A stretch of 64,000 nt of DNA from Desulfomicrobium macestii (lineage in GTDB: Bacteria; Desulfobacterota; Desulfovibrionia; Desulfovibrionales; Desulfomicrobiaceae): the NCBI RefSeq assembly GCF_014873765.1, contig NZ_JADBGG010000026.1, forward strand, positions 1 to 64,000, read 5' to 3'. Both the position numbers and the translations under genes were made by a program. Positions within the stretch are counted from its first letter, which is position 1, and the number at the start of each line of letters is the position of its first letter. Positions 4,054 to 19,684 of the stretch are shown here, piece after piece. The notes beneath the pieces are model-generated. The model saw only the letters and a program-made list of their open reading frames with translations. It made no database searches and was not told the origin of the DNA.

Positions 4054-4077
4054 ACCATTACTTCTTTTCGCTGCCGG

Positions 4078-6084
4078 TCATAGGGAATAGGTCCTATCCA
4101 CATAGTGGCGCTGCAACCATTCGAACACCAGCAGCGACCAAATGAGCAGCCTCCGGTTGTGCCAGCCGTGGAAGTGGTCTTGGAGCTTTTCCTCGACTAC
4201 GGCGGCGTCGAACCACGGGCGGCTTGTGGTCTGCCTGTCGAGTAGGATGCTTCTGATGTACTCCATGGTCGGGCCCCGGTACCAGTTTTCGTCCGGCGGC
4301 GAAAACCCTTGTTTCGGCTTCAGCGTGTATGTATTCGGCAGGTAGCGCTCCATGGCGCACCGGAGGATCAGCTTCCCGTCGGTGGTCAGGAATGGAAACT
4401 CGCCCCTTTCGGCTCGATTTTCGTTCATCTTGAGATTATACTCGGCGGGGATGCCCGCTGCTAGGTCGACCAGTTCATTGTCGAGGAACGGGACCCGAAC
4501 CTCCATGCCGTGTGCCATGCTGATTTTGTCCTCAATGGTAAGGAGACCGTGCAGGAAGGTATCGAACTCGAAATTCAGGATTTGCTGGAACAGCTCCTCG
4601 TTCGACCTGCGGTTCGGAGTGCCGGACTTTGCGCGTTCCAGCGCGGATTGGAAGCTCTCCCGGGCAGAGTAAAGGAGGTCCCCCATGCCAGGCGCGAACA
4701 GGGAACCTAGTTCGTTAGGCGGAAGGAGGCGGTGCCAGTAGGAGAAGTAGGCATCCTCGAAGCGTTTCTCCCCCTGCCACTGGAAGCACTTTTCATAGCG
4801 CCACGGATATCCCGCGAACAACTCATCCCCGCCGGTTCCGGAGAGACAGACCTTGACGAACTTACTGGCGAGTTTGGCCGCATACCAATTCTGATGGCAC
4901 ATGCCGACCCGTAGGTCGTCGACGTGCCATGTGATCCTTTCCAGGGCCGCCTGCATGTCGCCGGAATGGAGGACGACCTCGTAGTGCTCCGTCTGTAGGA
5001 GATGGGACAGCGCTTCCGATTCTTTTCGCTCGTCGAAACCTTGCTCAATGCCGAACACGTTCGACAGATCGAATCCGCAGGTGAATGTGTGCATTCGCGG
5101 TATGTGGGCGCAGGACGCGGCTACGATAGATCCGCTGTCCATGCCGCCGGATAGGTAAGCACCGACCTCAACGTCGCTCACCAGCTGCCTGCGGATACAC
5201 CGTTCGAACGCGTCAGCAACGCGTTCGCAGACGCTTTTGAAGCTATCACCTGAGAGATCGACGGCGGTTGCGCTCCGGTCGTGGTAGCGCCGGATCGCGG
5301 GCTCCTCGCCGGAGCCGACGTCGAGGGACAGGGTATGCCCCGGCTCTAAGAGCTGGATGCCTTGGAATAGAGTTCGGTCGGAATAGATATTCTGGAACGT
5401 GAAATATTCGCACATCGCGACGTGGTCGATGGTGGCGTCGAGCAGGCAGGAATGGAGTATGCCCTTGGGCTCGCTGGCCAGGAGGAGGTAATCGTCGGTC
5501 ACGGCGTAGTAGACCGGTTTGATGCCGTGGCGGTCCCGAAACAGGGTCGCGCCGCCCGTGGCGAGGTCGACCACCAGGGCCGCGAACATGCCGTTCAGCA
5601 TGGGGATACAGGCCTCGCCGTACTCCTCCCAGAGTTGGAGCAGGACCTCGGTGTCGCTCGTGCCCTGAAAGACTCTTCCGTTGGACTCCAGGTCGTTGCG
5701 CAACTCGATGTGGTTATAGATTTCACCGTTGTAGACTATCCAGAACCGGTTGTTCATCGTCGGCATGGGCTGGTGCCCGGTGGGGGCGAGGTCGATGATT
5801 GACAGCCGCCGGTGCGCCATCCCGACGGTGTACCCCATGCGCCCGAACTGGGATGCGAACAAATCGCCGCCAAAGGGCGCGATGTGCTGGTTCCGGTGCC
5901 GGAACGCGGGGTCGGTGAACACGGCGTAGCTCCCGCCCTTCCCGTTTCCGGCCGGACTGGAGTTTAGGAATGCGTATCCAGAATCATCTGGTCCCCGGTG
6001 GGCCAACGAGTCGTTCATGGCCTTTAGCGCCATCGGATTGACCGGCCTGCCGGTCCGGGAAATTATCGCTGCGATTCCACACAT
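4078..6084 (-). CDS. Glutamine-dependent asparagine synthase-like amidotransferase
   Basis: A 668-residue AsnB-type protein. It begins MCGI, so Cys2 is free to act as the glutaminase nucleophile after Met removal, and NGEIYNH and the RHG motif complete the class-II glutaminase domain. The synthetase domain has the PP-loop LSGGMDSGS near residue 312 and SGTGGDELFAGY downstream, so both ATP-adenylation and ammonia transfer sites look intact. In O-antigen loci, AsnB homologues such as WbpS amidate uronic acid carboxylates. With amino-uronic acid genes in the same operon, a sugar-amidating role is more likely than asparagine synthesis (inference). There are only three bases between it and the next gene upstream. 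Confidence 0.88.
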   Translation of the reverse strand: MCGIAAIISRTGRPVNPMALKAMNDSLAHRGPDDSGYAFLNSSPAGNGKGGSYAVFTDPAFRHRNQHIAPFGGDLFASQFGRMGYTVGMAHRRLSIIDLAPTGHQPMPTMNNRFWIVYNGEIYNHIELRNDLESNGRVFQGTSDTEVLLQLWEEYGEACIPMLNGMFAALVVDLATGGATLFRDRHGIKPVYYAVTDDYLLLASEPKGILHSCLLDATIDHVAMCEYFTFQNIYSDRTLFQGIQLLEPGHTLSLDVGSGEEPAIRRYHDRSATAVDLSGDSFKSVCERVADAFERCIRRQLVSDVEVGAYLSGGMDSGSIVAASCAHIPRMHTFTCGFDLSNVFGIEQGFDERKESEALSHLLQTEHYEVVLHSGDMQAALERITWHVDDLRVGMCHQNWYAAKLASKFVKVCLSGTGGDELFAGYPWRYEKCFQWQGEKRFEDAYFSYWHRLLPPNELGSLFAPGMGDLLYSARESFQSALERAKSGTPNRRSNEELFQQILNFEFDTFLHGLLTIEDKISMAHGMEVRVPFLDNELVDLAAGIPAEYNLKMNENRAERGEFPFLTTDGKLILRCAMERYLPNTYTLKPKQGFSPPDENWYRGPTMEYIRSILLDRQTTSRPWFDAAVVEEKLQDHFHGWHNRRLLIWSLLVFEWLQRHYVDRTYSL

Positions 6085-6087
6085 GGC

Positions 6088-7224
6088 TCACACTCCTTCT
6101 GACCGGTACGGCTGTCGCCCGGACTTGGCGGCAAAGGCCGCTTCATACCTGTCCAGCACCGTCCTGGCGACCTTGGCCGGGTCGTGCCACGCGTGGACGT
6201 AGTCCAGCGCTTTCCCGGCGGTGCGGCGTAGCTCCCCGGGGGTGTCGAAAATCGTGCGCAGCACCGGCTCAAGCGTATCCACGGTGACCGGGGAGAACAG
6301 CTCCCGGCAGTCGCGGGCCATGCCAGTAGGGATAAAACGCAGGTCCTCGTCCCTGATGAAGGAAAGCACGGGAACGCCCATCTTCATTGCCTCCACCGCG
6401 ATGGCTCCGTACCAGCCGACATAGAGCTGATCGATGAGCAGGTCCGCCCGCGCGTAGATTCTGAGCGCCTCGTCGTTGGAAATGTTCTCGACCAGCGTGA
6501 AGCGTATCCGCCCACCGGACTCGCGCGCCAACCGCTCCATCACGCCGATCACCGCCCCGCTTCCCTTGCACGCCCTGTTCGACGGCGCGTGGACGACGTG
6601 TAGCGGTCCGGACGCGGCGGGCGTCCGCTCCGCGAGTCGGTCCCAAGTGGAGATGGTGTAGGGGAGGAACTCGGTCCGTTCCGGTAGGGTCCAGAACAGG
6701 TCGGGATTCAAGGCGAAAATGAGGTCCGCGTACCGGTCAACCTTGCGTATCCGACGGGCCCGGTGCGCATCCCGCTTCCCGTCGTTGCAGACGCCGCCGT
6801 AGCAATCCTCTTGGTGGCAGGCGGAGTAATCGCACCGCCGCATGGTGGGATACTTCTGGCGGGCGTCGCACCCGTTGAAGGTGAAAACCTTGAGGCTGTC
6901 CCGTCCGTAGAAAGGAAGGTCGGCGAGGTTGCCGGTCCCGTGCGGATCGAGCAGTGTCGTCGCGAAATTGAAGTGGTAGACGTCGTAGGCGTCGCGAAGC
7001 CCGAGGAACTCCCTGACAAGATTGAGCCGCCGACCCCAGTAGACGAGCCGGTTGGCCGATGGGCCCGTGTACAGGGTCCTGTCGGCGGGAAACCCGAACG
7101 AACTGCCGAAGGCCACCAGAACGTCGGAGCGCAGCCCGTGGGCGCGCTCCCCGCGCGACAGCCCGTAGCCGTTGCCCCCAACTTCCGTGGGGAGGTGCAG
7201 TATTCTCCAGCCCTTAGCGACCAC
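6088..7224 (-). CDS. GT-B glycosyltransferase with a cysteine-rich insertion
   Basis: A 378-residue glycosyltransferase-like protein. The C-terminal half has the GT4-like donor segment IDQLYVGWYGAIAVEAMKMG, shared in form with the proteins at 7214 and 9777, so the three look like paralogues. The N-terminal half contains an unusual cluster, CDYSACHQEDCYGGVC, at about residues 130-145, with four cysteines and a histidine that could bind zinc or iron. The start overlaps the upstream gene by 11 bases, implying translational coupling. Donor and acceptor are unknown. Confidence 0.8.
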   Translation of the reverse strand: MVAKGWRILHLPTEVGGNGYGLSRGERAHGLRSDVLVAFGSSFGFPADRTLYTGPSANRLVYWGRRLNLVREFLGLRDAYDVYHFNFATTLLDPHGTGNLADLPFYGRDSLKVFTFNGCDARQKYPTMRRCDYSACHQEDCYGGVCNDGKRDAHRARRIRKVDRYADLIFALNPDLFWTLPERTEFLPYTISTWDRLAERTPAASGPLHVVHAPSNRACKGSGAVIGVMERLARESGGRIRFTLVENISNDEALRIYARADLLIDQLYVGWYGAIAVEAMKMGVPVLSFIRDEDLRFIPTGMARDCRELFSPVTVDTLEPVLRTIFDTPGELRRTAGKALDYVHAWHDPAKVARTVLDRYEAAFAAKSGRQPYRSEGV

Positions 7225-8398
7225 TTGGTTCTATTCCCATTTGCCTGTTGAGGCGGTCGAACAGTGCGCCGATAGCTTCCGTGGAGTGATGCTTTTCGGC
7301 GTATCCCCTGGACTTCCGGCCGATCTCCGCCAGCTCCGCCCTGTTCTCCACAAGGGAGCGGACCGTCTCCTTGACGTCCCGGTACGAGCACTGGACGATG
7401 GGGATCTCATCGGGCTCCACCAGCCCCGCGAAGGTGTAGAGATCCACCAGCTCCGGCCGCAGATAGCACAGCACCGGCCGGCCGGCCGCCATGCCCTCCA
7501 AGGCGAACATGGCGTACCAGCCCACCACGAGCTGGTCGGCGACGACGTCGCATTCGGCGATCAGCCGCTTGATCTCCTCGTTTGGCACCTTGGAGACCAC
7601 GACCAACTCCACGTCGACGCCCTCGTCGCGCAACTCCCGGATGGCCTTCTCGAAATACTTGGTCCCCTTGATCATCTGATGGTTCGGGGCGTGCAGTATG
7701 CGGATGGGGCCGTCGTGCCGTCCCGAGTTGAACTCCGCCCTGGTCCCCGTCGTGTCGATGGAGAAATGGGCCAGGGTCAGGACGTCCCAGTGGTAGGTGT
7801 AGTCCACCCAGTCGCAGCCGGAAAGAACGATGTCCGCATGCTCGGTCCACCGCTCGATCTGTCGGACGATGTGCGGCCGGCGCGTTTTCTGGAACAACGG
7901 GTAGTCGGAAACTAGCGCGTGTCGGAAGGCGTAGTTCGGGCACCGCGTCATGTCGTCCACGTCGCCGCCGTAGGGCATGACGAGCACCTTGATCCCCGCC
8001 AGCTTGTACAGGTACGGCTCAAGGCGCTTCAGGGGCGACCACGCCAGGGGACCTCCGTTGAAATAGATGTAGATGCACCGGTACCGGAAGAGCACCTTGA
8101 GCATCAGCTCCATGGAGGCCAGGGTCAGGTTCTTGCGGAGGCACTTCACGTCGAAGTCCTCAGTGATGTAGTAGACGTGGCTGACGAACGTCTCCACGGT
8201 GTACCCCATCTGCCGGAGGGCCTTCCTGTGGTAGATGTTGTTGATCATGGGCTCCGGCCCGAGGCCGACGTCGACGCTCCGCTTCGAGAACCGGGACACG
8301 GCGGCCGCGATGACGAAGCCGACGCCAATGGGGCCGCACGCGGCGACCAGGGCCCATCTGGACAATTTCCTTTTGATCGTACCGAGTATCCTGCTCAT
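7214..8398 (-). CDS. GT-B glycosyltransferase
   Basis: A 394-residue glycosyltransferase. After a short hydrophobic N-terminal stretch (roughly residues 12-35, possibly a membrane anchor) it has a GT-B architecture ending in the donor segment ADQLVVGWYAMFALEGMAAG around residue 285-300. The same block recurs in the 6088 and 9777 proteins. It lacks the cysteine cluster of its downstream neighbour. It is separated from the radical SAM gene upstream by a few bases and overlaps the next gene by 11 bases. Substrate unknown. Confidence 0.82.
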   Translation of the reverse strand: MSRILGTIKRKLSRWALVAACGPIGVGFVIAAAVSRFSKRSVDVGLGPEPMINNIYHRKALRQMGYTVETFVSHVYYITEDFDVKCLRKNLTLASMELMLKVLFRYRCIYIYFNGGPLAWSPLKRLEPYLYKLAGIKVLVMPYGGDVDDMTRCPNYAFRHALVSDYPLFQKTRRPHIVRQIERWTEHADIVLSGCDWVDYTYHWDVLTLAHFSIDTTGTRAEFNSGRHDGPIRILHAPNHQMIKGTKYFEKAIRELRDEGVDVELVVVSKVPNEEIKRLIAECDVVADQLVVGWYAMFALEGMAAGRPVLCYLRPELVDLYTFAGLVEPDEIPIVQCSYRDVKETVRSLVENRAELAEIGRKSRGYAEKHHSTEAIGALFDRLNRQMGIEPSGR

Positions 8399-8405
8399 GT
8401 CGCGC

Positions 8406-9755
8406 TCACCGTCCGACGTTTTGCACTTCTTCGTTGGCCTTTTCCACCATCGCCCTCAGGTCCTCGTCTGGGAAACGGCTCAGGTTCACCCACAGGCTCT
8501 GGGTCATGGCGTCGCGCAGCTGGAGCATGAACCCCTCCTCGTCCTGCAGCATTCCTTTGGCGCGTAGGCTTTTGTAGAGCCTCGTTCCGGGGAACGGGAG
8601 CGGATACTGGAAATACCCGGGGATGCCGAGCCGCTTCGCGGCCTCGATGGTCTTTCGCAGCGATTTGGCGTCGTCGCCGGGGAACCCGTAGAGGAGGCCC
8701 ATGTACGAGGGGGCCATCCCGTATTCCTTCAGCAGCGACAGGGCGTTGAACAGCTGCTCCGAGGTCACTCCCTTGCCCATCTCCTCCAGGATGCGGTCGT
8801 CGAACGACTCCACGCCGATGGAGATCTCATAGAAGTTGGAGTTGTTCATCTCCTCGATCACTTCCCTGTCGAGCAGGTCGGCGCGCGCGCCGCCCACCCA
8901 GAAATAGGTGTCCGGAAGCTCCTTCCTGGCCGTGCGGCAGAAGTCGAACAGCCATTTCCGGTTTGCGTTGAACGTCTCGTCGTAGAAAGCGATGTTGTTC
9001 ACGTTGAACCGCTTGCGGACGTACTTGATGTGCTCGACGACGTAATCGACGCTGTGCACGGTGACCTTGTTGCCGTAGTTGCGGTAGCAGAAGCTGCACT
9101 TGAAGGGGCAACCCCGCCGGGAGAACATGATGAAGTAGTTGCTCACGTCGGAGTGGGGAATCCCCCGCTGGTCGCAGTAGCTCAGCAGCGACGGGCGCTT
9201 GGCGGTGGCATTGACGTAATAGTCCATGTCAACGAGGTCGTAGCCCGGAAACGGCACGTCATCCAGGTTCTCCATGCGCCGGGCCGGGCCCTGCACGAAC
9301 TCGTCGCCTTTCATCCAGGCCACGTTGGGGATTCCCTCGAGGGAGCCCCCTGAGATCAGGGCGTTGCACAGCTCAACGATGCTCACCTCGCCCTCGCCGA
9401 CCATGACCACATCCAGGGGAAGGTACTTGAGCACCACGTCCGGGCAAGGGGTGGCAAAACTGCCGCCGCCGATAAGGCGCGCTTCGGGCTGGTGTCTGCG
9501 GACCACGTCGCATAGCCATTTGATGTAGTAATAGACTGTCGTCATGCCGCTGAAGCCGACGATCTTCGCCGTGTTCTTTCTGAAGAAGTCCTCGACCTCC
9601 TCCTGTGGCGGACGATGGACGTTCAGGTCCAGCAGGCGCACGCGTAATCCGGCGTCCTTAAGTATCCGCCCAAGGTACATCACGCCGAAGGGCGGGTCCG
9701 TGGCACGGAAGTTCTTCATGATCGGGGGGTAGACCAAAATAACGTCGTAATCCAT
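8406..9755 (-). CDS. B12-binding-type radical SAM protein
   Basis: A 449-residue protein. The first ~140 residues (DVILVYPP..., SGMTTVYYY, GGGSFATPCPDVVL, GEGE) form the cobalamin-binding-like domain typical of P-methylase/BchE-type enzymes. The radical SAM core follows, with RRGCPFKCSFCYRN near residues 217-230 supplying the CxxxCxxC cluster ligands. Members carry out methylation at unactivated carbon or phosphorus, ring formation and other radical reactions. The ATG at 9755 is preferred over an upstream TTG because AAGGAT sits just before it. In this glycan operon it may modify a sugar, lipid carrier or peptide; the substrate is unknown. Confidence 0.87.
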   Translation of the reverse strand: MDYDVILVYPPIMKNFRATDPPFGVMYLGRILKDAGLRVRLLDLNVHRPPQEEVEDFFRKNTAKIVGFSGMTTVYYYIKWLCDVVRRHQPEARLIGGGSFATPCPDVVLKYLPLDVVMVGEGEVSIVELCNALISGGSLEGIPNVAWMKGDEFVQGPARRMENLDDVPFPGYDLVDMDYYVNATAKRPSLLSYCDQRGIPHSDVSNYFIMFSRRGCPFKCSFCYRNYGNKVTVHSVDYVVEHIKYVRKRFNVNNIAFYDETFNANRKWLFDFCRTARKELPDTYFWVGGARADLLDREVIEEMNNSNFYEISIGVESFDDRILEEMGKGVTSEQLFNALSLLKEYGMAPSYMGLLYGFPGDDAKSLRKTIEAAKRLGIPGYFQYPLPFPGTRLYKSLRAKGMLQDEEGFMLQLRDAMTQSLWVNLSRFPDEDLRAMVEKANEEVQNVGR

Positions 9756-9776
9756 GATCCTTGCCAACCTTGCAGG

Positions 9777-12371
9777 TTAAAACGGGTAGTCGGGGAATTC
9801 TTCCAGGGGCACCACCAGCGTTCGCAAACCGTCCTTCCCGAAGCGGACTTCGTGGGAAAGCCGCGTCCTCCGGCCGTCGCCGTCGAGGCACACCATTTCT
9901 GCGACCGGGTCCGGGCCTGTCATGCAGATGCTCAGGCCCTGGCAGTCCTTCGGCCTAAGGTCGAGGCGGGCTCCCGACAGCACAAGACGAATCCCGGCCC
10001 CGGCGGGTTCGGTATCGATCCTGAGATCCTCGCACATGGCCTGATACGCCAGGAACCGGGAGAGCGGCGCGACCCAGATGCGCCCTTCGTGATAGCGGCG
10101 GGCGAGACGCTCCATGCCCTCGACGGCGTCGTCGGGAAAACACTCCGTCGCGCAGCACACGGCCGCGCCTTCCGCCGTCCTGTCGCATCCCATGTGCTGG
10201 TAGACGACGATGCCGCCCCCCAGGTCTTCGAGATGGGCCAGGTTGCTTTCCGAAAGCTGCCGCCCCAGGCTCCGGACGTCGGGAGCCTGGGGCCGGAGCC
10301 CCCTGAAGCGCCTGAAGCCGAGAACCCGCCGACCGTCGCGGAGGGTGTCATGCACCAGCAGCCGGTTGCCCCAGACGTCGTCCGGGTCGTCGCAGGCGAG
10401 GTCGTCGCGGTACCCGCTCCCGTCCCGGACGCCCAGGCAGAACTTGTTCGTGCAGAAACCGTCCAGCCAGTAGAAGCGGACCCCGGCCCTTTCGAGGAGG
10501 TCGGCATGGTACGCCGGGCTGCCCGGTAGATCCCCCGCCTGGTAGGGATTGGGCCACAGTCCGCCGATATTCTGGCGGTTGTTCGTGTTGCCGTGGTTCG
10601 ACCAGACCTCCATGCGCACGCCCACCCCTTCCAGCTCCCTCAGGGCCGCCTGCGCATGGGCGCGGGTGAACCCGCCCCGGATGTCGAACCCGCCGTAGGC
10701 GTGGATGGTGTCCAGGATGCCGAGGGAGACCAGCTCCCTGAGTTCGTCGGCGTGCTCCCCGTACCTCTCGTGATCCGTCCCGTGGAACAGGGAGAACCCG
10801 CCGTCCTCGTTTTCGTTGAAGAACCACAGGCTGTCGGACACGGGCAGGCCGAGTCCCGCGCCGAACGCCGTCTCGACCCCCCGGTTGTTCAGCCACCGGT
10901 GCAGCTCGCAGAAATGCTCCCAGGAAAAATACTCGCAGTCGTTGGCGAAGGCTAGCCCGGCAACGTACGGGGCGGGCCAGCGGCGGACCGTGAAGGACGA
11001 CCCGCTGCCGGGGACGGGGAAGGTCTTCTCCCGTTCCCCGCGGCCCCACTCCTCGACAAGGGCCAGCCACGCGTCCGGGCCCGGTCCGGCCAGGAGATCC
11101 ACCGAGCGGGAGAGGCGCTCCTCGGAGTACACCTCGCCGTACCACTTCGCGGCGGCCCGGCCCCGGGACTCAAGCCACGCCCTGTCCGTACAGGCCCTTT
11201 CCAGGGCCTGTACGATCTCCTCCCGGCTCTCCGCCTGGATGACCGGGGGACAGGAGGGGTAGCCGAACCGGTTGAAATTGCCGAGGTGGGTCAGGACCGG
11301 CTTCCCCAGGCACATGGCCTCGAAGGAAACCGAGCCGAGCGACCCCACCACGAACTGGTCGACGACCAGGTCGGCGGCGGACATGTAGTCGCGAAGGACG
11401 GGCTTGCTCACCGCCCCGTCCATGATGAGGACCTGCGACGAGATTCCCCGCGCTTCGATGAACGCACGGGCGGCGGCGTAGTCGTCCCCCCAGCCCGCGA
11501 CCACCAGCCGCAGTTCCGGGAACCGGAGGCAGACGTCGGCGAACGCCTCCAGGAACCGGTCGCTCCCCTTCCAGCGGTAGTTGATCCTGGACGGCAGGAA
11601 CGCCACGAGCGCGTCTTCCGGGACGCCCAGCTCGCGCCGGGCCCGGTTCGCGCCCGACGCCCGGGAGAACAGCGGGCGGTTGATGTTGGGCAGAAAGGCG
11701 TACCGGGACTTGCGGACCAGACCGTTCCGCTTCAGGACCCCGTGGATCTCGGCGTCGCAGCCGTACGCCTCGATGACGAAGGCGGGCGATTCCAGGATGC
11801 GCCGGAATAGCGCCGAGGCCACCGGGTCCGTTCCGCCCGCGTCGGCGAGGACCACGCGGATGTCGCCGCCATAGGTGAAATATGCCGTGGGAATGCCCGC
11901 CAGGTATGCGCAGATCGCCGCATTGAGGCCGAAGGCGATCATCGTGTCGTACCCGGAGGCCTCGCGGATGATGGCGGCAAAGCCCTTGGCCGCGCCCCGC
12001 AACAGCGCGACCTGTTCCCCGGGCCATTCCGCGCACAGGGAGGCAATGCGCTCCTCAAGCCAGGCCCAATGCGGCTCGTTCGCCTCCCGGCGCAGGTTTC
12101 CCGTGGCGCGGAGATGGCCGTTGTCCGGCAGGTGCTCGCGGGAAAGACCGGCCCAGTATTCGAGGCCCTGGCGCTGCCGCATGACGTCCTCATAGCCGAG
12201 CCGGAGGGAAACGGCCTCCCAAACGGGCTGCGAAAACGCGAACCGTTCGTTGTCGTCGAGAAACAGCGTCGCCTCGTATCCCAGCCTGCGCAGTTCGCAG
12301 GTCATGTTCCACGCGTTGTTGGCGATGTTGCCGAGCAGGGCGACGCGCGCCTTTCCCTTGCCGCCGCTCAT
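9777..12371 (-). CDS. Fusion of GT4-like glycosyltransferase and polysaccharide deacetylase-like domain
   Basis: An 864-residue two-domain protein. Residues ~1-440 are a GT-B glycosyltransferase, with a donor segment VVDQFVVGSLGSVSFEAMCLG related to the 6088 and 7214 proteins. From ~465 a NodB-like (carbohydrate esterase 4-like) domain begins, with an FANDCEYF segment near 480 in place of the usual TFDD metal-binding motif and SNHGNTNN near 590 in the position of the H-x3-H motif. A single polypeptide might add a sugar and then de-N-acetylate it, but the altered first motif leaves activity uncertain. The start overlaps the stop of the upstream gene by four bases (ATGA). Confidence 0.78.
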   Translation of the reverse strand: MSGGKGKARVALLGNIANNAWNMTCELRRLGYEATLFLDDNERFAFSQPVWEAVSLRLGYEDVMRQRQGLEYWAGLSREHLPDNGHLRATGNLRREANEPHWAWLEERIASLCAEWPGEQVALLRGAAKGFAAIIREASGYDTMIAFGLNAAICAYLAGIPTAYFTYGGDIRVVLADAGGTDPVASALFRRILESPAFVIEAYGCDAEIHGVLKRNGLVRKSRYAFLPNINRPLFSRASGANRARRELGVPEDALVAFLPSRINYRWKGSDRFLEAFADVCLRFPELRLVVAGWGDDYAAARAFIEARGISSQVLIMDGAVSKPVLRDYMSAADLVVDQFVVGSLGSVSFEAMCLGKPVLTHLGNFNRFGYPSCPPVIQAESREEIVQALERACTDRAWLESRGRAAAKWYGEVYSEERLSRSVDLLAGPGPDAWLALVEEWGRGEREKTFPVPGSGSSFTVRRWPAPYVAGLAFANDCEYFSWEHFCELHRWLNNRGVETAFGAGLGLPVSDSLWFFNENEDGGFSLFHGTDHERYGEHADELRELVSLGILDTIHAYGGFDIRGGFTRAHAQAALRELEGVGVRMEVWSNHGNTNNRQNIGGLWPNPYQAGDLPGSPAYHADLLERAGVRFYWLDGFCTNKFCLGVRDGSGYRDDLACDDPDDVWGNRLLVHDTLRDGRRVLGFRRFRGLRPQAPDVRSLGRQLSESNLAHLEDLGGGIVVYQHMGCDRTAEGAAVCCATECFPDDAVEGMERLARRYHEGRIWVAPLSRFLAYQAMCEDLRIDTEPAGAGIRLVLSGARLDLRPKDCQGLSICMTGPDPVAEMVCLDGDGRRTRLSHEVRFGKDGLRTLVVPLEEFPDYPF

Positions 12372-14434
12372 GCCTCATCCTCCCGACGACGTTGCAGGAC
12401 CGCCTCGCGCGAGGGCCACAGGTAGGTTCCGTACTGGCGCGAACGGCGCGTCACCGGAACGACCTCGGCATGGAACGACGAACCGGCTTCACGTTCCGGA
12501 AGGTCGAAGGACGCGCGGCACTCCCCGGTTTCAGCCGAAAGGACGACCCCTTGGGAGTCGCCCTCGTCGAAACGGAGCGCGGGATCGATCCGGCCGTACT
12601 CCCATCCCCTGGAGCGATTGCGGACGACGGCCCGGTACCCGATGACCGCGTCCTGCGGGTTCCCGGCGAGGACCGACGGGGTCCAGGCCAGCTCCAGGCG
12701 GCCGCCCGCATGCCCGAAGGCGGTTATTCGCGGCATCGACGGAAGAAGGCTCCCGGACTCCGGCGTGTAGCTGCCGGACACGGCTCCCCGCCGCTCGGGG
12801 GGCAGGGCGTCCACGTATCCGCGCACCTCGCTGCCGAACACCCCTCTCGACGGGGCGTCGCCGGGCAGGGTCATCCAGCCGGTCGGCGGAAAGCGGTCGA
12901 TGAGCCACGGTTCGCGCCGCACGTCGTCCAGCGTCGGCAGGGTCCCGGCCGGAGTCCTGGGCACGACGCCGTTCTTGAAGGCGTCCGCGTCCGCGATCAC
13001 CCACCTGCCGTCGACTAGCACCTCCGCCGCCACGTGGTTGTGCAGTTGCAGCAACCGTCCAGCGATCCCCGCGAGGCGGCACAGCTCGATGAGCAGCCGC
13101 GACACGTGGCCGCACCGGCCGCGTCCGACGAACAGGGTGCAGAGTGGGGAGGCCGGATCGCCGACCTCGTCCACGGGCTGGCAGATGGGATCGCGATACA
13201 CGGCCCGCTGCACGAATTCGAGAATCGAGACGAAGGCCCCCTCCTCGCCGGGGGCGGATTCGGCCAGGCTCCGAGCGAGGGCTTCGAGATAGCCGTCCCC
13301 GGCGCACCGGGCGCGGAACATGGCTTCGTCGTATAGCCGCCACGGCATGTGCCGTTGGTTGCCGTTGGCCAGGACGGCCCTGCGCGAACGCTCCACGTAC
13401 GCAGGGTTGTCGGCGGCGGACCTAGCGCGCTCGATGAAATATGATGTGCTCGGTTCGGCCCAACAGGTTTCCGGCTTGGTCAGGGTGCACTCCCACACGG
13501 ACAGCCTGCCGTCGTGAAGGTGCGGGTACTTCGGCTCCAGGCGCGGAATCTTCCAGTCCGCCACCAGAAGCCCTTCCCCGTGCCATTGGAAATCCGCCAG
13601 TCCGGCCCGGTCGGCAAGGGCCTCGAATTCTGCGGGCATGTAGGCGCGGGCGGTCTGGAGCGTCCGTTCGAGGTGCTGGGAGTCGGCCACGCACGTGGCC
13701 GCGTCGTACGCGAGGCGCGCCGCGTACTCCTCGCCGCACGTCTCCTGGACGGACCGGACTAGCTCCAGCCCCTGGGACGTCGAGGTGAGTAGCGCCAGGG
13801 CGGTCTGCTCCTCGGGCCGCCCGGTGAAGGGAAGCAGGGCCATGACGGGATTGAGCAGCCTGAGGGAGTCGTGAAGCCCCCCGGCGAAGGCCCGGTGCCA
13901 GTACGTCACGTAGAGGGTGTCCAGGCCGGCTTTCCGGATGTGGGGTTTCTCCCGGCTCATCACGTCCGCCAGGTAATGGCTCCAGCCGTCGGCGTTCAGG
14001 CAGCAGTACACGCGGCCGCCGGGCCTCAGCACCCGGGAGAACTCGGCCAACGCCCTGCCGACGTTCACGAACATGATAACCCCGTAGCAGAAGACGGCGT
14101 CGAACGATCCGTCGGCAAAGGGCAGGCTCTCGATGGAGGAATGGAGAAAATGCATGTTGCGGGCGCCGGCCATGTTGGCTATCCGGCGGGCCTTCTCCAG
14201 GCGGGGCGTGTTGATCTCGACGCCATGCACCGTGTCGAACCGCCGCGAAAGGGCGATGCCCCACTGGCCCATCCCGCATCCCGCGTCGAGCACGGACGAG
14301 CCCTCGAACATGAGCCGGTCCAGTCTGCCGAGATAGTAGTCCAGACCCGGGCCGAACTCCATTTCCATGAATTCCTTGTCGTAGTCCGAGTCGGCCAGCC
14401 CTTTCAGGACGTCGAGCGGGGGGAACTGCATCAT
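12368..14434 (-). CDS. Methyltransferase / transglutaminase-like / Ig-like domain fusion
   Basis: A 688-residue fusion. Residues ~45-175 are a class I SAM methyltransferase (VLDAGCGMGQ at 48-57, LRPGG near 137). Residues ~435-490 match the transglutaminase-like cysteine protease fold, with Cys441 in GRCGHVSRL, His465/467 in LHNHVAAEV and Asp482/484 in WVIADADAF. The last ~120 residues are strand-rich and resemble a fibronectin-type III or Ig-like module. No signal peptide is visible, so it should be cytoplasmic. It overlaps both neighbours by four bases. The association with two radical SAM proteins suggests stepwise modification of a peptide, amide-linked amino acid or glycan; this is inference. 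Confidence 0.75.
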   Translation of the reverse strand: MMQFPPLDVLKGLADSDYDKEFMEMEFGPGLDYYLGRLDRLMFEGSSVLDAGCGMGQWGIALSRRFDTVHGVEINTPRLEKARRIANMAGARNMHFLHSSIESLPFADGSFDAVFCYGVIMFVNVGRALAEFSRVLRPGGRVYCCLNADGWSHYLADVMSREKPHIRKAGLDTLYVTYWHRAFAGGLHDSLRLLNPVMALLPFTGRPEEQTALALLTSTSQGLELVRSVQETCGEEYAARLAYDAATCVADSQHLERTLQTARAYMPAEFEALADRAGLADFQWHGEGLLVADWKIPRLEPKYPHLHDGRLSVWECTLTKPETCWAEPSTSYFIERARSAADNPAYVERSRRAVLANGNQRHMPWRLYDEAMFRARCAGDGYLEALARSLAESAPGEEGAFVSILEFVQRAVYRDPICQPVDEVGDPASPLCTLFVGRGRCGHVSRLLIELCRLAGIAGRLLQLHNHVAAEVLVDGRWVIADADAFKNGVVPRTPAGTLPTLDDVRREPWLIDRFPPTGWMTLPGDAPSRGVFGSEVRGYVDALPPERRGAVSGSYTPESGSLLPSMPRITAFGHAGGRLELAWTPSVLAGNPQDAVIGYRAVVRNRSRGWEYGRIDPALRFDEGDSQGVVLSAETGECRASFDLPEREAGSSFHAEVVPVTRRSRQYGTYLWPSREAVLQRRREDEA

Positions 14435-15807
14435 CGGGCGTACCTGATCTCCGTGATCATATTGCGGACGACCTTGCCGGTCGGCTTGTCTTCCGTTTCA
14501 GCCACGTGGGCCATCCATATGTTGCACTTGTCGCACGCGGGCCACTGCCCGAGGTCGTTGCGGATGAGGGCGCGACGCAGGTCACTGAACGGCTTCCCCA
14601 GCCAGATTTCGGAAAGCGGGGTTTCAGGCACGTCGCCCATGCTTTGCAGGGAGGTGTGAGCCAGCCGTGAAAGGGTCTCACAACAGTAGAGGCACTGCCC
14701 GTCCGGCAGGATGTATATCTCCTGCCACGGGTTGAGGCAGGGCCAGCGTTTGCCGGATTCCTGGATCTTGTTCTGGGCCACGGCGTGTATGGAGGAAAAG
14801 GAGGTGCTGCCGCCGTTGTAGGTCCCCAGGTTGTAGAAGATGGCGCCGTCGGACGAGGCGCACCACTTTTCGGCAAACCGCTCCACCTCGTCCCGGTCCA
14901 GGCCGTCGTTCAGGACGCAGGAGGTGAAGACCGCGAAGTCGGGCGAGCGCCGCTTCGCCTTCTCGATGAACGACAGCACCTGGGACTCGACTTTGGCCAG
15001 GTCGCCGCCCCTGATGCGCGCATAGGTGTCCGGAAGGGCCGCGTCCAGGCTGATGTAAATGCTCGTCAAACCGGCGTCCAGGAGGGCGTCGGCCCGCTCC
15101 TCCGTCAGTAGGACGCCGTTGGTCGTGATGTGCGCCGAAGGACTCCCGGCCTCCCTGGCCCGGCGGATGAACTCCGCCATGTCCGGGTGCAGCAGGGGTT
15201 CCTCGATGTTGCCCACCTTGACCGGCGCGCCCAGGCGTCCCACGTTCCCGGCGATGGAGAACAGCAGGTCGCGATCCATGAACTCGGGCCTGGAGAAATA
15301 ATCCCTGGCGTGGGTGCTCCGGGCCTTCTTCCCGTGGTAGGGGCACATCACGCACGATAGGTTGCACCTGTTGGATACCACGACACTGACCTGCACCGGC
15401 CGGGCGCTCACCGAACCGAAATGGTCGACGAAGTAATGCTCCTGCTCCGTCATGCTCGCGCCCTCCACCCGGTGGAACACCACCCCGGCCTCTCGGCCCA
15501 GACGAAGCGGCGCGAAGGGACGCTTCAGCAGTTCCTCGCGGGGGACGGAGACATGGTCCGGCACCCAGATCATGAGCGGGTCGTATTTTGGAAGCCCGAG
15601 TTCGGAACTCACCGGGATAACCGGCACGAAATAGTTCACGGTGTCCGGCTTCAGCGAGCCGAAAAACGCGGCGATGCTGGTCGGATGCAACGGAGCCGCC
15701 TCCGGGCACAGCAGAAGCTCGCCGCCGAGCGACGACTCCCGTGCCGCCCGGACCAATTCCCCGGAGGGGACACTCTTCCCGCATGAGAGACGCATCATTC
15801 TTGCCAC
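14431..15807 (-). CDS. Radical SAM protein with C-terminal SPASM-like cysteines
   Basis: A 458-residue protein. An N-terminal region of about 140 residues without recognised motifs precedes a radical SAM core with CNLSCVMC near residues 147-154. The C-terminus carries further cysteines (CLNPWQ..., CLYCC, CDKCNIW) in the pattern of SPASM auxiliary cluster domains. SPASM enzymes usually act on peptides, proteins or sugars; no precursor peptide gene is visible nearby. The open frame starts with GTG at 15807; an ATG four codons later (15795) is an equally likely start. It overlaps the methyltransferase-transglutaminase gene by four bases. Confidence 0.85.
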   Translation of the reverse strand: MARMMRLSCGKSVPSGELVRAARESSLGGELLLCPEAAPLHPTSIAAFFGSLKPDTVNYFVPVIPVSSELGLPKYDPLMIWVPDHVSVPREELLKRPFAPLRLGREAGVVFHRVEGASMTEQEHYFVDHFGSVSARPVQVSVVVSNRCNLSCVMCPYHGKKARSTHARDYFSRPEFMDRDLLFSIAGNVGRLGAPVKVGNIEEPLLHPDMAEFIRRAREAGSPSAHITTNGVLLTEERADALLDAGLTSIYISLDAALPDTYARIRGGDLAKVESQVLSFIEKAKRRSPDFAVFTSCVLNDGLDRDEVERFAEKWCASSDGAIFYNLGTYNGGSTSFSSIHAVAQNKIQESGKRWPCLNPWQEIYILPDGQCLYCCETLSRLAHTSLQSMGDVPETPLSEIWLGKPFSDLRRALIRNDLGQWPACDKCNIWMAHVAETEDKPTGKVVRNMITEIRYAR

Positions 15808-15911
15808 CGACCTTCGGGCTACTCATTTACTGCGATCGCCAGGCGGCCGGGATCGGGCGCTGAGCCCATCCCTGTCAGCCCGGCAACATCCTTCATTCAC
15901 GGTGCAAATCA

Positions 15912-16680
15912 TCAAGCCGTTGCTCCACCCCGCATCAGCGACAACGGACGGACGGGCCGGACAATCCGACGGATCAGCCCGGCGCTCACCCTCCAGGCCG
16001 TCAGGTGGAGGTTGCGGTTCGGCGTGGTCCGCTTGATGCCGCCGAACCCGAGATCAGCCAGCCGGCGACCTCCTCGAAGGTGTGGAGGTCGTTGATGGTC
16101 GGCGAGATGGCGTCGAACCAGCCGTGCACCGCCCCTTCGGGGATATGCTCGCGGCAGTACTCCATTTTTTCCGAAAGGGACGTGGACATCGTGGCGAAGC
16201 GGTGCGTGGCGTACATGTTGGCCTCGCGGAACTCGTCGATGGTCCGGGGCTCGCCGTAGAGCATCAGGAACATGCCGCCTCCCGGCCTGATCAGCCGGCC
16301 AAGGGCCTTGACCCCGAGCCGGGTGTTCCCGGTGTGGTGCAGCACCCCGAAGGGCCATACGTAATCGAAGGACTCCTCCTCGAACGGCAGTCCCTGGAGC
16401 ACGTTGCCCTGAGCCGCCACGGCGTCCAAGACCCTCTTCCCCTTGAACCAGTCGGCGTCCAGTCCCGTATGGGCGACGAGATCGCCGTGTCCGTGGCCAG
16501 GAAGTCTCCGGTATTGAGCTGGTCCCACTGGGTGTCGAAGGACTCGGCGGTTTGCTCGACAAAGGCACCGTGTCCGGCCGACTCGGCGAGCAGCTGGCGC
16601 ACGGTTCGCCTCAACGCGCTGCATTCATTGAGAAGATAGCGGATGCATTCGTTTTTGAGAAGTTCCTTTGAATGATCCAT
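15912..16680 (-). pseudogene. Decayed SAM-dependent methyltransferase gene
   Basis: The reading starts at 16680 (MDHSKELLKNEC...) and runs to about 16495. It continues in a second frame through DWFKGKRVLDA and the methyltransferase segments FDYVWPFGVLHHTG and RLIRPGG, then shifts again near 16050 into the frame encoding DLGFGGIKRTT and LHLTAWR, stopping at 15912. Besides the two frameshifts, the VLDA strand is followed at once by a post-motif II segment. About 40-50 residues including the glycine-rich SAM-binding loop are therefore missing. Three lesions make sequencing error alone unlikely. It sits 5 bases downstream of the epimerase gene in the same operon. Confidence 0.85.
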
Positions 16681-16684
16681 CCGA

Positions 16685-17692
16685 CTACTCACTGATCTTT
16701 CGTTTGCGCGCTTCGACCGCTTCCTTGTGGTTTTGACGCCATTCGATGAGGGCTCGCAAACCCTGAGCCAACGGGACTTCCGCTTTGAAGCCGATCTCCC
16801 TGATCGCCTTTTCGGGGCAGCCGACGCGGTTCTTCACGAAGGTCAGGCCGCCGGGCAGGAACTTGATTTCCTGCTTCGAGTCGCGGATGTCCAGAATCAT
16901 TTCGGTTAATTCCTTAATGCTGGTTTTGATGCCGGTGCCGACGTTGTAGAAGGCGTCGGTCGCGTCGGACTGCATGGCGAGCAGGTTGGCGCGGGCGCAG
17001 TCTCCAACGTAAACGAAGTCGTAGGACTGGGAACCGTCGCCGTAGACGACCGGGGCCTTGCCCGCGTCGAGGTTGTCGAGGATCTTCATGATCACCGCGA
17101 TGTACTGGCCCATGTAGTCCTGCCTCGGGCCGTACACGTTCATGTACCGGAGCCCCGCGAAGTCGAACGCCTTGTCCGTGGTCTTGTAGCGGTGGTAAAG
17201 GGAGTGGCACATGGCCTCGCCCGCGATCTTCGTCGCTCCGTAGAAATTGTCGTTGTTTAAGGGATGGTCCTCGGTCATGGGTTCCTGCACAGCGTCGCCG
17301 TACACGGAGGCCGAGGAGGAGTAGACTAGCTTCTTCACACCGTTGTTGAGCATGGCCTCCAGCACGTTGAACGTGCCGCCAATGTTCACATCGAAGGCAG
17401 AACGAGGAAAGTCGTAGCAGTGGCGGAGCCACAACGCGGCGAGGTGGAACACGCCGTCGACGCTCTTCATGGCCGCGTCGAGGATGTCGCGGTGCATTAG
17501 CTCCCCGCCGAGCGGGAAGATCTTGACGCGTGGGTCCCTCAGCGCACCGGCCAGGTTCTCCTCCGAGCCCCGGGTGAAGTTGTCGAAAACGCGGATTTCC
17601 GCCACGTCCTCGCGGGTGAGAAGATCGACCAGATGCGAGCCGATGAAACCGGCACCGCCGACCACAAGAAACGTCTTTCCTTTGATATCCAT
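16685..17692 (-). CDS. NAD-dependent nucleotide-sugar epimerase
   Basis: A 335-residue extended SDR enzyme, starting at the ATG that gives MDIKGKTFLVVGGAGFIGSH. The NAD-binding GGAGFIG motif is at residues 12-18, the catalytic YGATK pair follows SSSASVYG, and the RYMNVYGPRQ segment is typical of UDP-sugar 4-epimerases. The 17 residues upstream in the open frame are Cys/Arg-rich and unlike the family. It probably makes a UDP-hexose, UDP-hexosamine or UDP-uronic acid for the glycan. It lies about 105 bases downstream of the second asparagine synthase gene and just upstream of the broken methyltransferase. Confidence 0.9.
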   Translation of the reverse strand: MDIKGKTFLVVGGAGFIGSHLVDLLTREDVAEIRVFDNFTRGSEENLAGALRDPRVKIFPLGGELMHRDILDAAMKSVDGVFHLAALWLRHCYDFPRSAFDVNIGGTFNVLEAMLNNGVKKLVYSSSASVYGDAVQEPMTEDHPLNNDNFYGATKIAGEAMCHSLYHRYKTTDKAFDFAGLRYMNVYGPRQDYMGQYIAVIMKILDNLDAGKAPVVYGDGSQSYDFVYVGDCARANLLAMQSDATDAFYNVGTGIKTSIKELTEMILDIRDSKQEIKFLPGGLTFVKNRVGCPEKAIREIGFKAEVPLAQGLRALIEWRQNHKEAVEARKRKISE

Positions 17693-17797
17693 AAGGTATG
17701 TCCTCTTGCTCGCGAACGAGCGGTATGTTCGGCAGCAGAACATTCTTTCACAACGGCCGGTAGGGATATTTTCCGCCCCCGGACTGCCGGACCCGCC

Positions 17798-19684
17798 TCA
17801 GCAGGGCCGGATGCCAAAAATTTCAAGCCACAACAGGTAGTTGAGCAGCCTCCACAGCCTCGCCGAATCGGCCGGTTCCCGCATTTCCGCCAGCAACAGG
17901 GCGCTGTCCCGGTCGATCATCCCCAGGTCGGCGCTCCCGATGCGTTCCTTGACCTGGCCCAGGCACCTCGACAGCCAGTCCCGTTCCGGGGTGGCGAATC
18001 CGATTTTGTCCCGCCGGTCGACGATCCCGTCGGGGACGATGCCGCGCATGGCCTCCCGGAGCACGGCCTTGCTGCGCCCCTGTCCGTCGATCAGGTATTC
18101 CTCGGGCAAAGAGAACAGGAACTCCGCCAGTTCCGCCGTCAGGAAAGGCACCCTGTTTTCTATGGAAAAGGTCATGGCGTTCCGGTCGCCGTGCCGCAAC
18201 AGGTTGGGCAGGTTCTCCCAAGACACGAAATTCGCAAGGGTCGTCCGGACGAGATCCGGGTGGGAATGGGGTCCGCGAAACGGCGGCGCAACAGATACAG
18301 CCAGTTCTCCCAGCTTCCGCCGGTCGAAGAGGGCGACGGAGACGGGAGACGTTCCGGTCCTCCCGAGCAGTTCGTTTGCCGTCCGCCTCATGAGGCGCGG
18401 GAAGCTCCGGGCGGGCCATTTCGATGCCCTGAACAGGAACTCGGCGGCCTGGAGGACGCGGCCGCGACGCGCGAGACCGACGGCCCGCTGCATGCAGAAC
18501 CCGTCGTAACCCGCGAGCAACTCGTCGGCCCCTTGCCCCTCCAAGACGACCTTCACGCCGCACCGACGGGCTAGCCGGAACATGCGGTACTGGGCGTAGA
18601 TCGACGTGCCGTTGAACGGTTCGCCCAGCCGCTCGACCAGCACGGGTAGGTCGTCGAGCAGCTCGCCGAAGCTGGCACCGGTGACGTGATTGACGAACCG
18701 GGCCCGGCCGTTGGCCATGGCCACCCATTCGGCCTCGGAAATGGCCGGATCGTCAGCCACGTAGCTGAAGGAATGGAACTCCCGTCCCGGCTCTAGGTGG
18801 CGGACGCAACAGGCGATGGACGAGGAGTCGATCCCGCCGGACAAAGCCACACCCAGGGGCGCGTCGCTGCGGAGATGCAGGCGGACCGAGTCGAGGAACA
18901 ACTCGCGCAGCCGCTCCGCCGCGTCTGCGAAGGAGAGGGCGCTACGCCGCTCCAGGTCGATGCCCCAATAGGGAACCGGCTCCGAAACTAGGCCCGAGTC
19001 GAGGCTGACTTTGAGGCTTTGGGCGGGAGGAAGCTGCCTGACCGAGCGGAACAGGGTGGCGTCGTTGGGCTCGATGGAGCCGTGCGCGAGGAAGTTGAAG
19101 ACCCGTTGCGGGTCCAGGTCACGCGGGACGCCGGGGAATCGCAGCAGCGCAGGGAGTTCGGAGGCGAACCGGAACCCGCTCGAAGTTGCGGCGTAGTAGA
19201 ACGGCTTGATCCCGAAACGATCGCGGGCGCAGAACAGGATGCGCCGCTCAAGGTCGGCGATGGCGAAACTGAACATGCCGTTGAATCGGGTCAGGCAATC
19301 CGGTCCCCACTGCATGTAGGCCTGGAGCAGCACCTCGGAGTCGGAAGTGCTCTCAAATGTGTGGCCAAGGGATTCGAGTTCCTCGCGTAGTTCGACGTAG
19401 TTGTAAATTTCGCCGTTGTAGGTCAGGTGATGGCGGCCGTCGCGGCTCGCCATGGGCTGCGCTCCGCCGGGCGTCAGGTCGATGATGGCGAGCCGGGTGT
19501 GTCCCAGGACGAGGCGCGTGTCGCCCTGTGGGCGGGGAGAGGGCACCAGCCCCTGCGAAAAATAGCGGACGCCGTTAGCATCTGGGCCGCGATGGCGCAG
19601 GGCTCGGAACAGACCATCCGTCACGCGTCCGCACGCTCCCTCATCCAGGCCGTTGATGTTGTGTATTCCGAAAATGCCGCACAT
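17798..19684 (-). CDS. Second glutamine-dependent asparagine synthase-like amidotransferase
   Basis: A 628-residue AsnB-family protein whose start is fixed at 19684 by the need for Cys2 (MCGIFGIHN); the open frame extends ten codons upstream. It has an NGEIYN glutaminase motif, a PP-loop LSGGIDSSS near residue 280, and EGQGADELLAGYDGF in the synthetase domain. It is only distantly similar to the copy at 4078 (different spacing and length), so the two are probably not a recent duplication. Two amidotransferases in one glycan operon suggest amidation of two different carboxyls, or an aminoacyl decoration (inference). Confidence 0.88.
   Translation of the reverse strand: MCGIFGIHNINGLDEGACGRVTDGLFRALRHRGPDANGVRYFSQGLVPSPRPQGDTRLVLGHTRLAIIDLTPGGAQPMASRDGRHHLTYNGEIYNYVELREELESLGHTFESTSDSEVLLQAYMQWGPDCLTRFNGMFSFAIADLERRILFCARDRFGIKPFYYAATSSGFRFASELPALLRFPGVPRDLDPQRVFNFLAHGSIEPNDATLFRSVRQLPPAQSLKVSLDSGLVSEPVPYWGIDLERRSALSFADAAERLRELFLDSVRLHLRSDAPLGVALSGGIDSSSIACCVRHLEPGREFHSFSYVADDPAISEAEWVAMANGRARFVNHVTGASFGELLDDLPVLVERLGEPFNGTSIYAQYRMFRLARRCGVKVVLEGQGADELLAGYDGFCMQRAVGLARRGRVLQAAEFLFRASKWPARSFPRLMRRTANELLGRTGTSPVSVALFDRRKLGELAVSVAPPFRGPHSHPDLVRTTLANFVSWENLPNLLRHGDRNAMTFSIENRVPFLTAELAEFLFSLPEEYLIDGQGRSKAVLREAMRGIVPDGIVDRRDKIGFATPERDWLSRCLGQVKERIGSADLGMIDRDSALLLAEMREPADSARLWRLLNYLLWLEIFGIRPC

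Follow-up and report, generated by a model that had tools for sequence, protein, structure and literature searches.

Do six closely packed genes of Desulfomicrobium macestii form a functional module, or are they common polysaccharide genes gathered by chance? The genes encode two radical S-adenosylmethionine (SAM) proteins, one with a SPASM domain and one with a B12-binding domain, a methyltransferase-transglutaminase (MT-TG) fusion, a glycosyltransferase-deacetylase (GT-deacetylase) protein, and two further glycosyltransferases, GT7214 and GT6088. They lie at positions 6088 to 15807 of the window analyzed here, the first 64,000 nucleotides of contig NZ_JADBGG010000026.1 (assembly GCF_014873765.1). 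An initial annotation, made from the sequence alone, had proposed that they may constitute an undescribed glycan-modification module. All six open reading frames (ORFs) were found where that annotation had placed them, all on the minus strand, and the tight packing was confirmed: the SPASM and MT-TG genes overlap by 4 bases, as do the MT-TG and GT-deacetylase genes; gaps of 9 and 7 bases separate the B12 radical SAM gene from the GT-deacetylase gene and from GT7214, respectively; and GT7214 and GT6088 overlap by 11 bases. The genes co-occur in four other loci across phyla, and this recurrence supports the proposed module as a co-inherited one. We rate the region as a surface-polysaccharide locus with a new combination of enzymes.

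The gene set recurs in distant phyla

The species-genome collection was scanned once, by pattern, for the TG half of the fusion; the scan gave 26 pattern stretches, which led to four further MT-TG loci, all in metagenome-assembled genomes (MAGs): Thermoguttaceae (L037), Bacillota (L038), Nitrospirae (L039), and Planctomycetaceae (L040). Their fusions are 39 to 44% identical to that of the window. All four loci carry both asparagine-synthase-like amidotransferases, both epimerases, a deacetylase domain, the Wzm/Wzt exporter (with the Wzt_C domain confirmed by Pfam in L038 and L040), and a SPASM radical SAM gene directly before the MT-TG gene, an arrangement seen in 5/5 loci with that of the window. 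The clustering of this gene set in 4/4 other loci identified by the TG half is more than chance. The two window amidotransferases (AsnB4078 and AsnB17798; Table 1) are 43 to 57% and 34 to 41% identical to their relatives in all four loci, and the two epimerases (Epi16685 and Epi3136) are 39 to 64% and 26 to 42% identical to theirs. Relatives of GT7214 were found in L038 (49%), L039 (33%), and L040 (30%), and those of GT6088 in the same loci (40%, 41%, and 34%; tblastn E values of 6e-88, 5e-66, and 7e-56 across the three loci). The Bacillota locus also holds a relative of the window DegT enzyme (49%) and of the hexapeptide part of the window MocA fusion (57%), the dehydrogenase part of which is matched at only 23%.

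The Planctomycetaceae locus runs epimerase, amidotransferase, Wzm, Wzt, deacetylase, SPASM protein, MT-TG, glycosyltransferase, formyltransferase, DegT, glycosyltransferase, GT7214, epimerase, GT6088, and amidotransferase, the last being reversed. The Nitrospirae locus is like it, except that a hexapeptide-type stretch replaces the formyltransferase and one more methyltransferase is present. In the Bacillota locus, a second, stand-alone TG protein precedes the radical SAM gene, and the SPASM part of the latter is N-terminal. The Thermoguttaceae stretch ended inside the MT-TG gene, and the remainder was located on another contig of the same genome, the contig ends sharing 141 identical bases. 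The order there is epimerase, amidotransferase, Wzm, Wzt, an 890-residue protein with MT and TG parts, SPASM protein, a second SPASM radical SAM protein of the Bacillota type, MT-TG, B12 radical SAM protein, GT-deacetylase fusion, glycosyltransferase, epimerase, and amidotransferase. In some high-GC loci (L026 and L028), the ORF caller chose wrong frames; from these loci, only ORFs whose frame was borne out by an alignment entered the comparison. What first looked like a fusion in L026 was rejected because the frames of its matches showed two genes.

The comparison alters the outline of the module in several respects. Its true unit is wider than 6088 to 15807, the limits first set for it: both amidotransferases and both epimerases belong to it, as does the Wzm/Wzt exporter in the other four loci. 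In the window, the gene row continues past 6088 with an amidotransferase 3 bases on and an epimerase another 24 bases after it, so that an end at 6088 is arbitrary. Conversely, the set of six families held in part: MT-TG, the SPASM protein, and the deacetylase domain are present in 5/5 loci, but the B12 radical SAM protein is found in only 2/5, its sole orthologue among the four other loci being that of L037 (55%); in the other three genomes, B12 radical SAM matches reach only 24 to 29% and lie on other contigs. The very similar high GC content of the six genes (0.60 to 0.68) had been taken as a sign of a module. This argument was rejected and carries little weight because most adjoining 2-kb bins fall in a like range (0.59 to 0.65).

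As far as genome draws show, the MT-TG enzyme is rare and scattered. The TG-half profile (372 positions) was searched at E ≤ 1e-10 in draws that each include their center genome. In the draw from the window's phylum, it matched 1/297 genomes, the window's own; in the phylum of G488, 3/392 (E = 1e-189, and two weaker matches of 1e-25 and 6e-21 over positions 59 to 293 and 30 to 360 of 372); in the phylum of G487, 1/245; and in the phylum of G486, 1/199, with two matches in one genome. When the whole fusion was searched against the 199 surrounding genomes (window's included), only the window's own match was full length among the matches listed; the others listed cover the methyltransferase half only, and the 182/199 genomes that match are thus no evidence for the fusion. 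One scan of viral contigs with the TG profile gave 29 pattern stretches, none of which was confirmed. Plasmids yielded no match to the TG half of L039 and 171 records matching the whole MT-TG protein, all below 60% identity and none covering 80% of the query; the best 20 of the 171 match the methyltransferase part only.

Two further searches among genomes of the window's order bear on the origin of the set. At E ≤ 1e-15, none of the 198 other genomes yielded a relative of GT6088; the same search recovered its 24% identical paralogue GT7214 in the window (E = 3e-17) and is therefore not blind. Glycan loci of the order do contain weak GT6088 relatives (24 to 27%), at E values of 7e-8 to 4e-13 in a small database. 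The SPASM protein has a conserved N-terminal region of ∼135 residues beyond any Pfam match. Its profile, at E ≤ 1e-25, matched 18/199 genomes, and the 17 matches other than the window's lack the N-terminal part, since their alignments begin at profile position 87 at the earliest. Given the distribution of GT6088 and these truncated SPASM matches, the gene set looks acquired from afar rather than derived from the O-antigen genes of the order, and sequence comparison suggests that the cluster has passed from one phylum to another.

Domain architecture of the shared enzymes

The MT-TG fusion consists of a methyltransferase (residues 14 to 323, approximately), a TG core (385 to 483), and a beta-rich C-terminal part (about 570 to 681) whose strands are seen in the predicted model. 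The Transglut_core match (PF01841; 32.5 bits against a cutoff of 23) places the core in the transglutaminase-like superfamily, and its Cys-His-Asp triad (C441, H467, and D482) is invariant in all five aligned fusions. The triad is kept also in the stand-alone TG copy of L038, in the 890-residue Thermoguttaceae protein, and in two planctomycete TG proteins. The latter are 701-residue proteins with a C-terminal transglutaminase-like domain (L058, 11724-13829; L060, 1694-3799), around which no cluster of module genes was recognized. In the predicted model, the first 320 residues of the window fusion adopt a class I methyltransferase fold (Z about 20), with sugar N-methyltransferases among the many matches; this part filled both fold-match lists, and the fold matches thus speak for the methyltransferase only. 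Compared with Protein Data Bank (PDB) sequences, the TG profile had a single, weak match, the hydrolase peptide N-glycanase (E = 0.025).

Domains of this set are linked in several combinations: MT with TG in the window, the four other loci, and the 890-residue protein; deacetylase with MT in L036; and glycosyltransferase with deacetylase in the window and L037. The L036 fusion (8803-10701, minus strand) lies in a glycan locus of a genome of the window's order and adjoins a GT7214-like gene; its deacetylase part is 35% identical to that of the window (E = 3e-22). The 890-residue protein matches Methyltransf_23 (32.8 bits), and its TG part was recognized by tblastn (E = 3e-6) and the aligned triad, with a sub-cutoff Pfam score of 16.2 bits. 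By eye, its first part resembles a deacetylase, but it had no match in Pfam or among PDB sequences and was not counted as one.

The deacetylase half of the window GT-deacetylase protein is supported by its predicted fold, and its fusion to the glycosyltransferase is not shared by all loci. The model of the C half (mean predicted local distance difference test [pLDDT] score of 74.9) supports a NodB-type polysaccharide deacetylase fold (CE4 and relatives): VIA-align against PDB folds gave 3s6o (Z = 13.7; root mean square deviation of 3.4 over 223 aligned residues), 4dwe (13.2), and 3rxz (13.1), followed by PelA (12.6), ArnD (10.8), and WbmS (8.8). Four residues of the domain, D27, H106, H142, and H275, are invariant in the alignment and are candidate site residues. 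The two halves are fused in the window and in L037 but are separate genes in L038 to L040 (3/5 loci). The protein had no match among phage records. The paralogy suggested for GT7214 and GT6088 was borne out, if weakly (25% identity over 208 residues; E = 2e-17).

The SPASM protein combines the CxxxCxxC radical SAM motif with a C-terminal SPASM domain, as judged by Pfam and alignment, and its PDB sequence matches include MoaA, cytosylglucuronate decarboxylase, tetraether synthase, and BtrN. It is 46% identical to its relative in L039 and 41% identical to that in L040, and full-length forms occur in these two loci, in the Thermoguttaceae genome, and on a Calothrix plasmid; the SPASM gene of L038 and one adjoining MT-TG in the Thermoguttaceae locus are of a different type, in which SPASM comes first. 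The relative on plasmid NC_019727.1 of Calothrix sp. PCC 6303 (L094, 19028-21425) is 43% identical over 98% coverage; its gene immediately follows one for a hypothetical protein in which an LI-x-(L/I)-F motif, seen by eye, is repeated, and lies 4 to 5 kb from a thiazole/oxazole-modified microcin (TOMM)-type gene. Plasmid pDCAR1 of Solidesulfovibrio carbinolicus (L096) has a sugar locus, interspersed with transposase genes, that encodes an ATP-binding cassette (ABC) permease, an ABC ATP-binding protein whose gene is annotated in two pieces, DegT, a SPASM radical SAM protein, and methyltransferases. In the B12 radical SAM protein, the B12-binding domain (PF02310; 71.2 bits) precedes the radical SAM domain (PF04055; 81.5 bits), and the best PDB sequence matches are 9ccb and AprD4 (6fd2). 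AprD4 is not known to use B12, and the window enzyme may or may not use it.

Comparison with known pathways and a proposed route

No pathway with the full gene set was found in searches of open-license PMC papers, as judged from the search listings, which agrees with the novelty first claimed, although absence there is no proof of absence in print. Partial counterparts exist and are given here as excerpts of the cited papers describe them. The closest is the Wbp/Vim pathway of Porphyromonas gingivalis and Tannerella forsythia, where the amidotransferase WbpS makes a uronamide and the putative CE4 deacetylase VimE is proposed to free an amine (PMC7468200); uronamide formation by WbpS-class amidotransferases is described for P. 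gingivalis (PMC7468200) and for Pseudomonas aeruginosa (PMC3684757), and related loci with a deacetylase, glycosyltransferases, and AsnB were noted in Nitrosomonas, Nitrosococcus, and Desulfovibrio vulgaris (PMC7468200). Both sides share an amidotransferase, a putative deacetylase, and Wbp-type DegT and dehydrogenase/acetyltransferase genes, and the DegT gene and MocA-hexapeptide fusion of the window (21268 to 24023) are arranged as would be expected for a 2,3-diamino-uronic acid (Wbp) pathway. The window module differs in its MT-TG fusion, in having one SPASM radical SAM enzyme or two, and, in the other loci, in its Wzm/Wzt exporter, whereas the Wbp/Vim pathway is tied to the attachment of type IX cargo. 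No VimA-type amino-acid transferase was recognized by Pfam or NCBIfam among the scanned window genes, of which those at 19690-20538 and 24878-25831 are without a family.

A second counterpart is the wbm system of Bordetella bronchiseptica, in which the TG-superfamily protein WbmE deamidates uronamide-rich O chains (PMC3507681) and one locus holds formyltransferase, aminotransferase, methyltransferase, and asparagine synthase genes (PMC3507681, PMC12243275, PMC3849452). The likeness lies in a TG-superfamily enzyme alongside asparagine synthase and methyltransferase genes, and in the deacetylase fold match to WbmS (PDB 3hft) given above. However, WbmE is a stand-alone periplasmic deamidase, whereas the window TG is the C-terminal part of an MT fusion and does not stand alone, and the term "radical SAM" is absent from the main text of PMC12243275 and PMC3849452. 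HvyA of Caulobacter is likewise a transglutaminase-like Cys-His-Asp protein tied to a surface polysaccharide, but it is a periplasmic capsulation regulator with a signal sequence, and the excerpt of its description makes no mention of a methyltransferase fusion (PMC4241560). Finally, ABC-transporter-dependent O-antigen loci resemble the four other loci in having Wzm/Wzt; they differ in that no match to the L038 Wzm was obtained in the window genome and in that no description of the set of MT-TG, deacetylase, and radical SAM enzymes was found in the papers searched.

By analogy with these systems, amide chemistry on amino-uronic sugars appears to be the most economical reading. We consider it an evenly balanced proposition that this modular locus has spread horizontally and serves to assemble and decorate a surface polysaccharide, with amidotransferases that would produce uronamides, a deacetylase that would release amines, and an MT-TG enzyme that would methylate the product and remodel its amides. 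The acyl donor of a transglutaminase is a carboxamide, hence the proposal that MT-TG methylates and remodels uronamides. Each catalytic step is put forward by analogy. Sugar-nucleotide enzymes would make amino-uronic sugars, the carboxylates of which the two asparagine-synthase-like enzymes would convert to carboxamides (uronamides), like WbpS; the deacetylase-fold domain might then take off an N-acetyl group and free the amine, as proposed for VimE. The methyltransferase domain of the fusion could methylate the sugar or the newly freed amine, and the TG domain, via a Cys thioester, would take the carboxamide as the acyl donor and transfer the acyl group to an amine in a transamidation or to water in a deamidation, like WbmE. 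The SPASM radical SAM enzyme, joined in the window genome by the B12 radical SAM enzyme, may alter the carbon frame of the sugar by oxidation, epimerization, deoxygenation, or C-methylation, any of which would fit. The glycosyltransferases would assemble the unit, and Wzm/Wzt would export it in the other loci. A more specific version is doubtful: that MT-TG acts as a transglutaminase on glycans, joining amidotransferase-made carboxamides and deacetylase-freed amines by ATP-free transamidation into amide-linked polysaccharide units whose linked sugar the radical SAM enzymes prepare. As a variant, the acyl donor would be a methyl ester made by the methyltransferase.

Points against the amide reading and alternative explanations

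Several observations weigh against this amide chemistry or against a unit in the strict sense. The other four loci come from MAG contigs, whose phylum assignments depend on binning and record titles. Gene order is shared only in part, the two amidotransferases having swapped places in the window relative to the other loci, and composition varies: the B12 radical SAM gene and the formyltransferase each occur in 2/5 loci, and GT7214/GT6088 and Wzm/Wzt in 4/5, the two glycosyltransferases not having been found in the Thermoguttaceae stretch. A search of the window genome with the L038 Wzm gave nothing at E ≤ 0.001, without a positive control. O-antigen loci commonly contain amidotransferases, DegT enzymes, and epimerases, which for this reason are weak evidence for uronamides; AsnB4078 and AsnB17798, moreover, match the WbpS-related model TIGR03108 at 372 and 332, under its cutoff of 816.9. 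The window deacetylase domain matches no Pfam family, none of the five deacetylase-domain members compared matches a deacetylase family at E ≤ 5, and the best PDB sequence match has an E value of 0.79. Its model is weak at residues 143 to 167, near the presumed active-site residues; GH57 enzymes are interspersed in the VIA-align list (Z = 11.4, 10.2, and 9.4); and Foldseek alone found nothing at E ≤ 0.001, giving mixed barrels with other barrels ranked first. The MT-TG model has a predicted template modeling (pTM) score of 0.45 and is uneven in the TG core. Because the TG domain is fused behind a SAM-dependent methyltransferase and no signal is evident by eye, MT-TG should act in the cytoplasm, unlike the periplasmic WbmE. 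Eight of the 17 truncated SPASM loci of the order have no relative of DegT, epimerase, MocA, Neu, or AsnB genes within ∼4 kb. At the Calothrix locus, none of the 15 features in an incomplete gene table is a glycan gene; given this and the nearby TOMM-type gene, a peptide substrate is favored for that relative, which may represent a peptide-modifying branch of the family.

Among the alternatives, it is unlikely that the TG domain is purely a deamidase or amidase that edits in the manner of WbmE, with the methyltransferase acting independently on another position. WbmE provides the precedent (PMC3507681), and the only PDB sequence match of the TG profile is a hydrolase; however, the fusions of MT with TG and with deacetylase suggest a joint step, and undoing in the same compartment a uronamide that the cluster's own amidotransferase has just made would be wasteful.

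Somewhat more doubtful is the idea that the module attaches a peptide or an amino acid to a glycan, the SPASM enzyme maturing the peptide and the TG domain linking it to an amino sugar. Peptides are frequent substrates of SPASM enzymes, the surroundings of the Calothrix relative fit such a role, and the Wbp/Vim pathway puts an amino acid on the freed amine (PMC7468200). Against it, the six genes overlap or lie no more than 9 bases apart, leaving no room for a precursor in the window (the other loci were covered without a systematic precursor search), and 9 of the 17 truncated SPASM loci show a DegT, epimerase, MocA, NeuB, NeuA, or AsnB relative within the ∼4 kb examined. The initial annotation had envisaged a peptide or amino-acid substituent with radical-made C-C or C-methyl bonds; with these gaps, and with the nearest known chemistry pointing to uronamides, that suggestion is best regarded as conjecture.

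It is quite improbable that MT-TG terminates the chains of an ABC-exported polysaccharide, a methyl cap halting growth and being read by the C-terminal domain of Wzt while the TG domain edits the end residue. WbdD of Escherichia coli O8/O9a reportedly ends chains with a methyl cap that is read in this way, and Wzm and Wzt accompany the fusion in all four other loci, two of them with a recognized Wzt_C domain, but the window retains MT-TG without Wzm/Wzt in the cluster, and the Wzm search of its genome, limited as stated above, was empty. Lastly, that there is no unit and the TG fusion is a passenger among common O-antigen genes gathered by chance is highly improbable: O-antigen loci are mosaics, the content and order of these loci vary, and weak GT6088 relatives exist in the order, but the fusion, both amidotransferases, both epimerases, the deacetylase domain, and the SPASM gene occur in 5/5 loci of distant phyla, GT7214 and GT6088 in 4/5, and close GT6088 relatives are absent from the 198 other genomes of the order.

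Neighboring features of the window

The features are collected in Table 1. The broken methyltransferase gene is accompanied by additional methyltransferase-like sequence in a neighboring frame, seen by eye. The protein at 19690-20538 (minus strand), between an amidotransferase and a cytidylyltransferase-like gene, had no Pfam or NCBIfam match at the thresholds used, and neither database assigned a family to it or to the protein at 24878-25831. Beside the glycan genes lie a NeuB-like synthase (26606-27667) and a cytidylyltransferase and Kdo-transferase pair (30910-32893), all on the minus strand, which suggests a lipopolysaccharide setting. Scans of positions 3000 to 18000 gave no excess of promoters (1 found versus 2.2 in shuffled sequences) or terminators (9 versus 11.3), and Rfam identified one tRNA and nothing else. 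A role in antiphage defense was considered and rejected: the PADLOC matches (PDC-M51A, 29 bits; mad2, 76 bits, residues 42 to 183; pVip, 34 bits) fall on radical SAM and methyltransferase core stretches and were thus taken as generic.

Table 1. Genes of the module and adjoining glycan genes in the 64,000-nucleotide window
Feature	Coordinates	Strand	Basis
NAD-dependent epimerase/dehydratase (Epi3136)	3136-4053	-	Pfam
Asparagine-synthase-like amidotransferase (AsnB4078), putative WbpS-like role	4078-6084	-	TIGR01536, 384.6 bits
Glycosyltransferase GT6088	6088-7224	-	Without Pfam family
Glycosyltransferase GT7214	7214-8398	-	Without Pfam family
B12-binding radical SAM protein	8406-9767	-	Pfam B12-binding and Radical_SAM; likelier start ATG at 9755 (by eye)
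GT4-like glycosyltransferase (N half) and predicted polysaccharide-deacetylase-fold domain (C half)	9777-12371	-	Pfam glycosyltransferase group 1 (N half); fold match (C half)
MT-TG fusion	12368-14434	-	Pfam Methyltransf_11 and Transglut_core
SPASM radical SAM protein	14431-15807	-	Pfam Radical_SAM and SPASM
Broken methyltransferase gene, between Epi16685 and the SPASM gene	16001-16624	-	Pfam, only second half of methyltransferase core matched
Nucleoside diphosphate (NDP)-sugar epimerase/dehydratase (Epi16685)	16685-17743	-	Pfam
Second asparagine-synthase-like amidotransferase (AsnB17798)	17798-19714	-	Pfam; TIGR01536, 416.6 bits
DegT aminotransferase	21268-22551	-	Pfam
MocA dehydrogenase-hexapeptide acyltransferase fusion	22437-24023	-	Pfam; UDP-GlcNAc 3-dehydrogenase model, 171 bits, under cutoff of 450

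Implications

The comparison yields a defined gene set that recurs in distant phyla and combines a single methyltransferase-transglutaminase protein with amidotransferases, a protein of deacetylase fold, and radical SAM enzymes. This set offers new enzymes for sugar chemistry and suggests that rare glycan modules travel between distant phyla as sets. It also makes the question of amide links in bacterial surface polysaccharides directly testable: if MT-TG does act as a transglutaminase on glycans, polysaccharide units would be joined or decorated via amide rather than glycosidic bonds.

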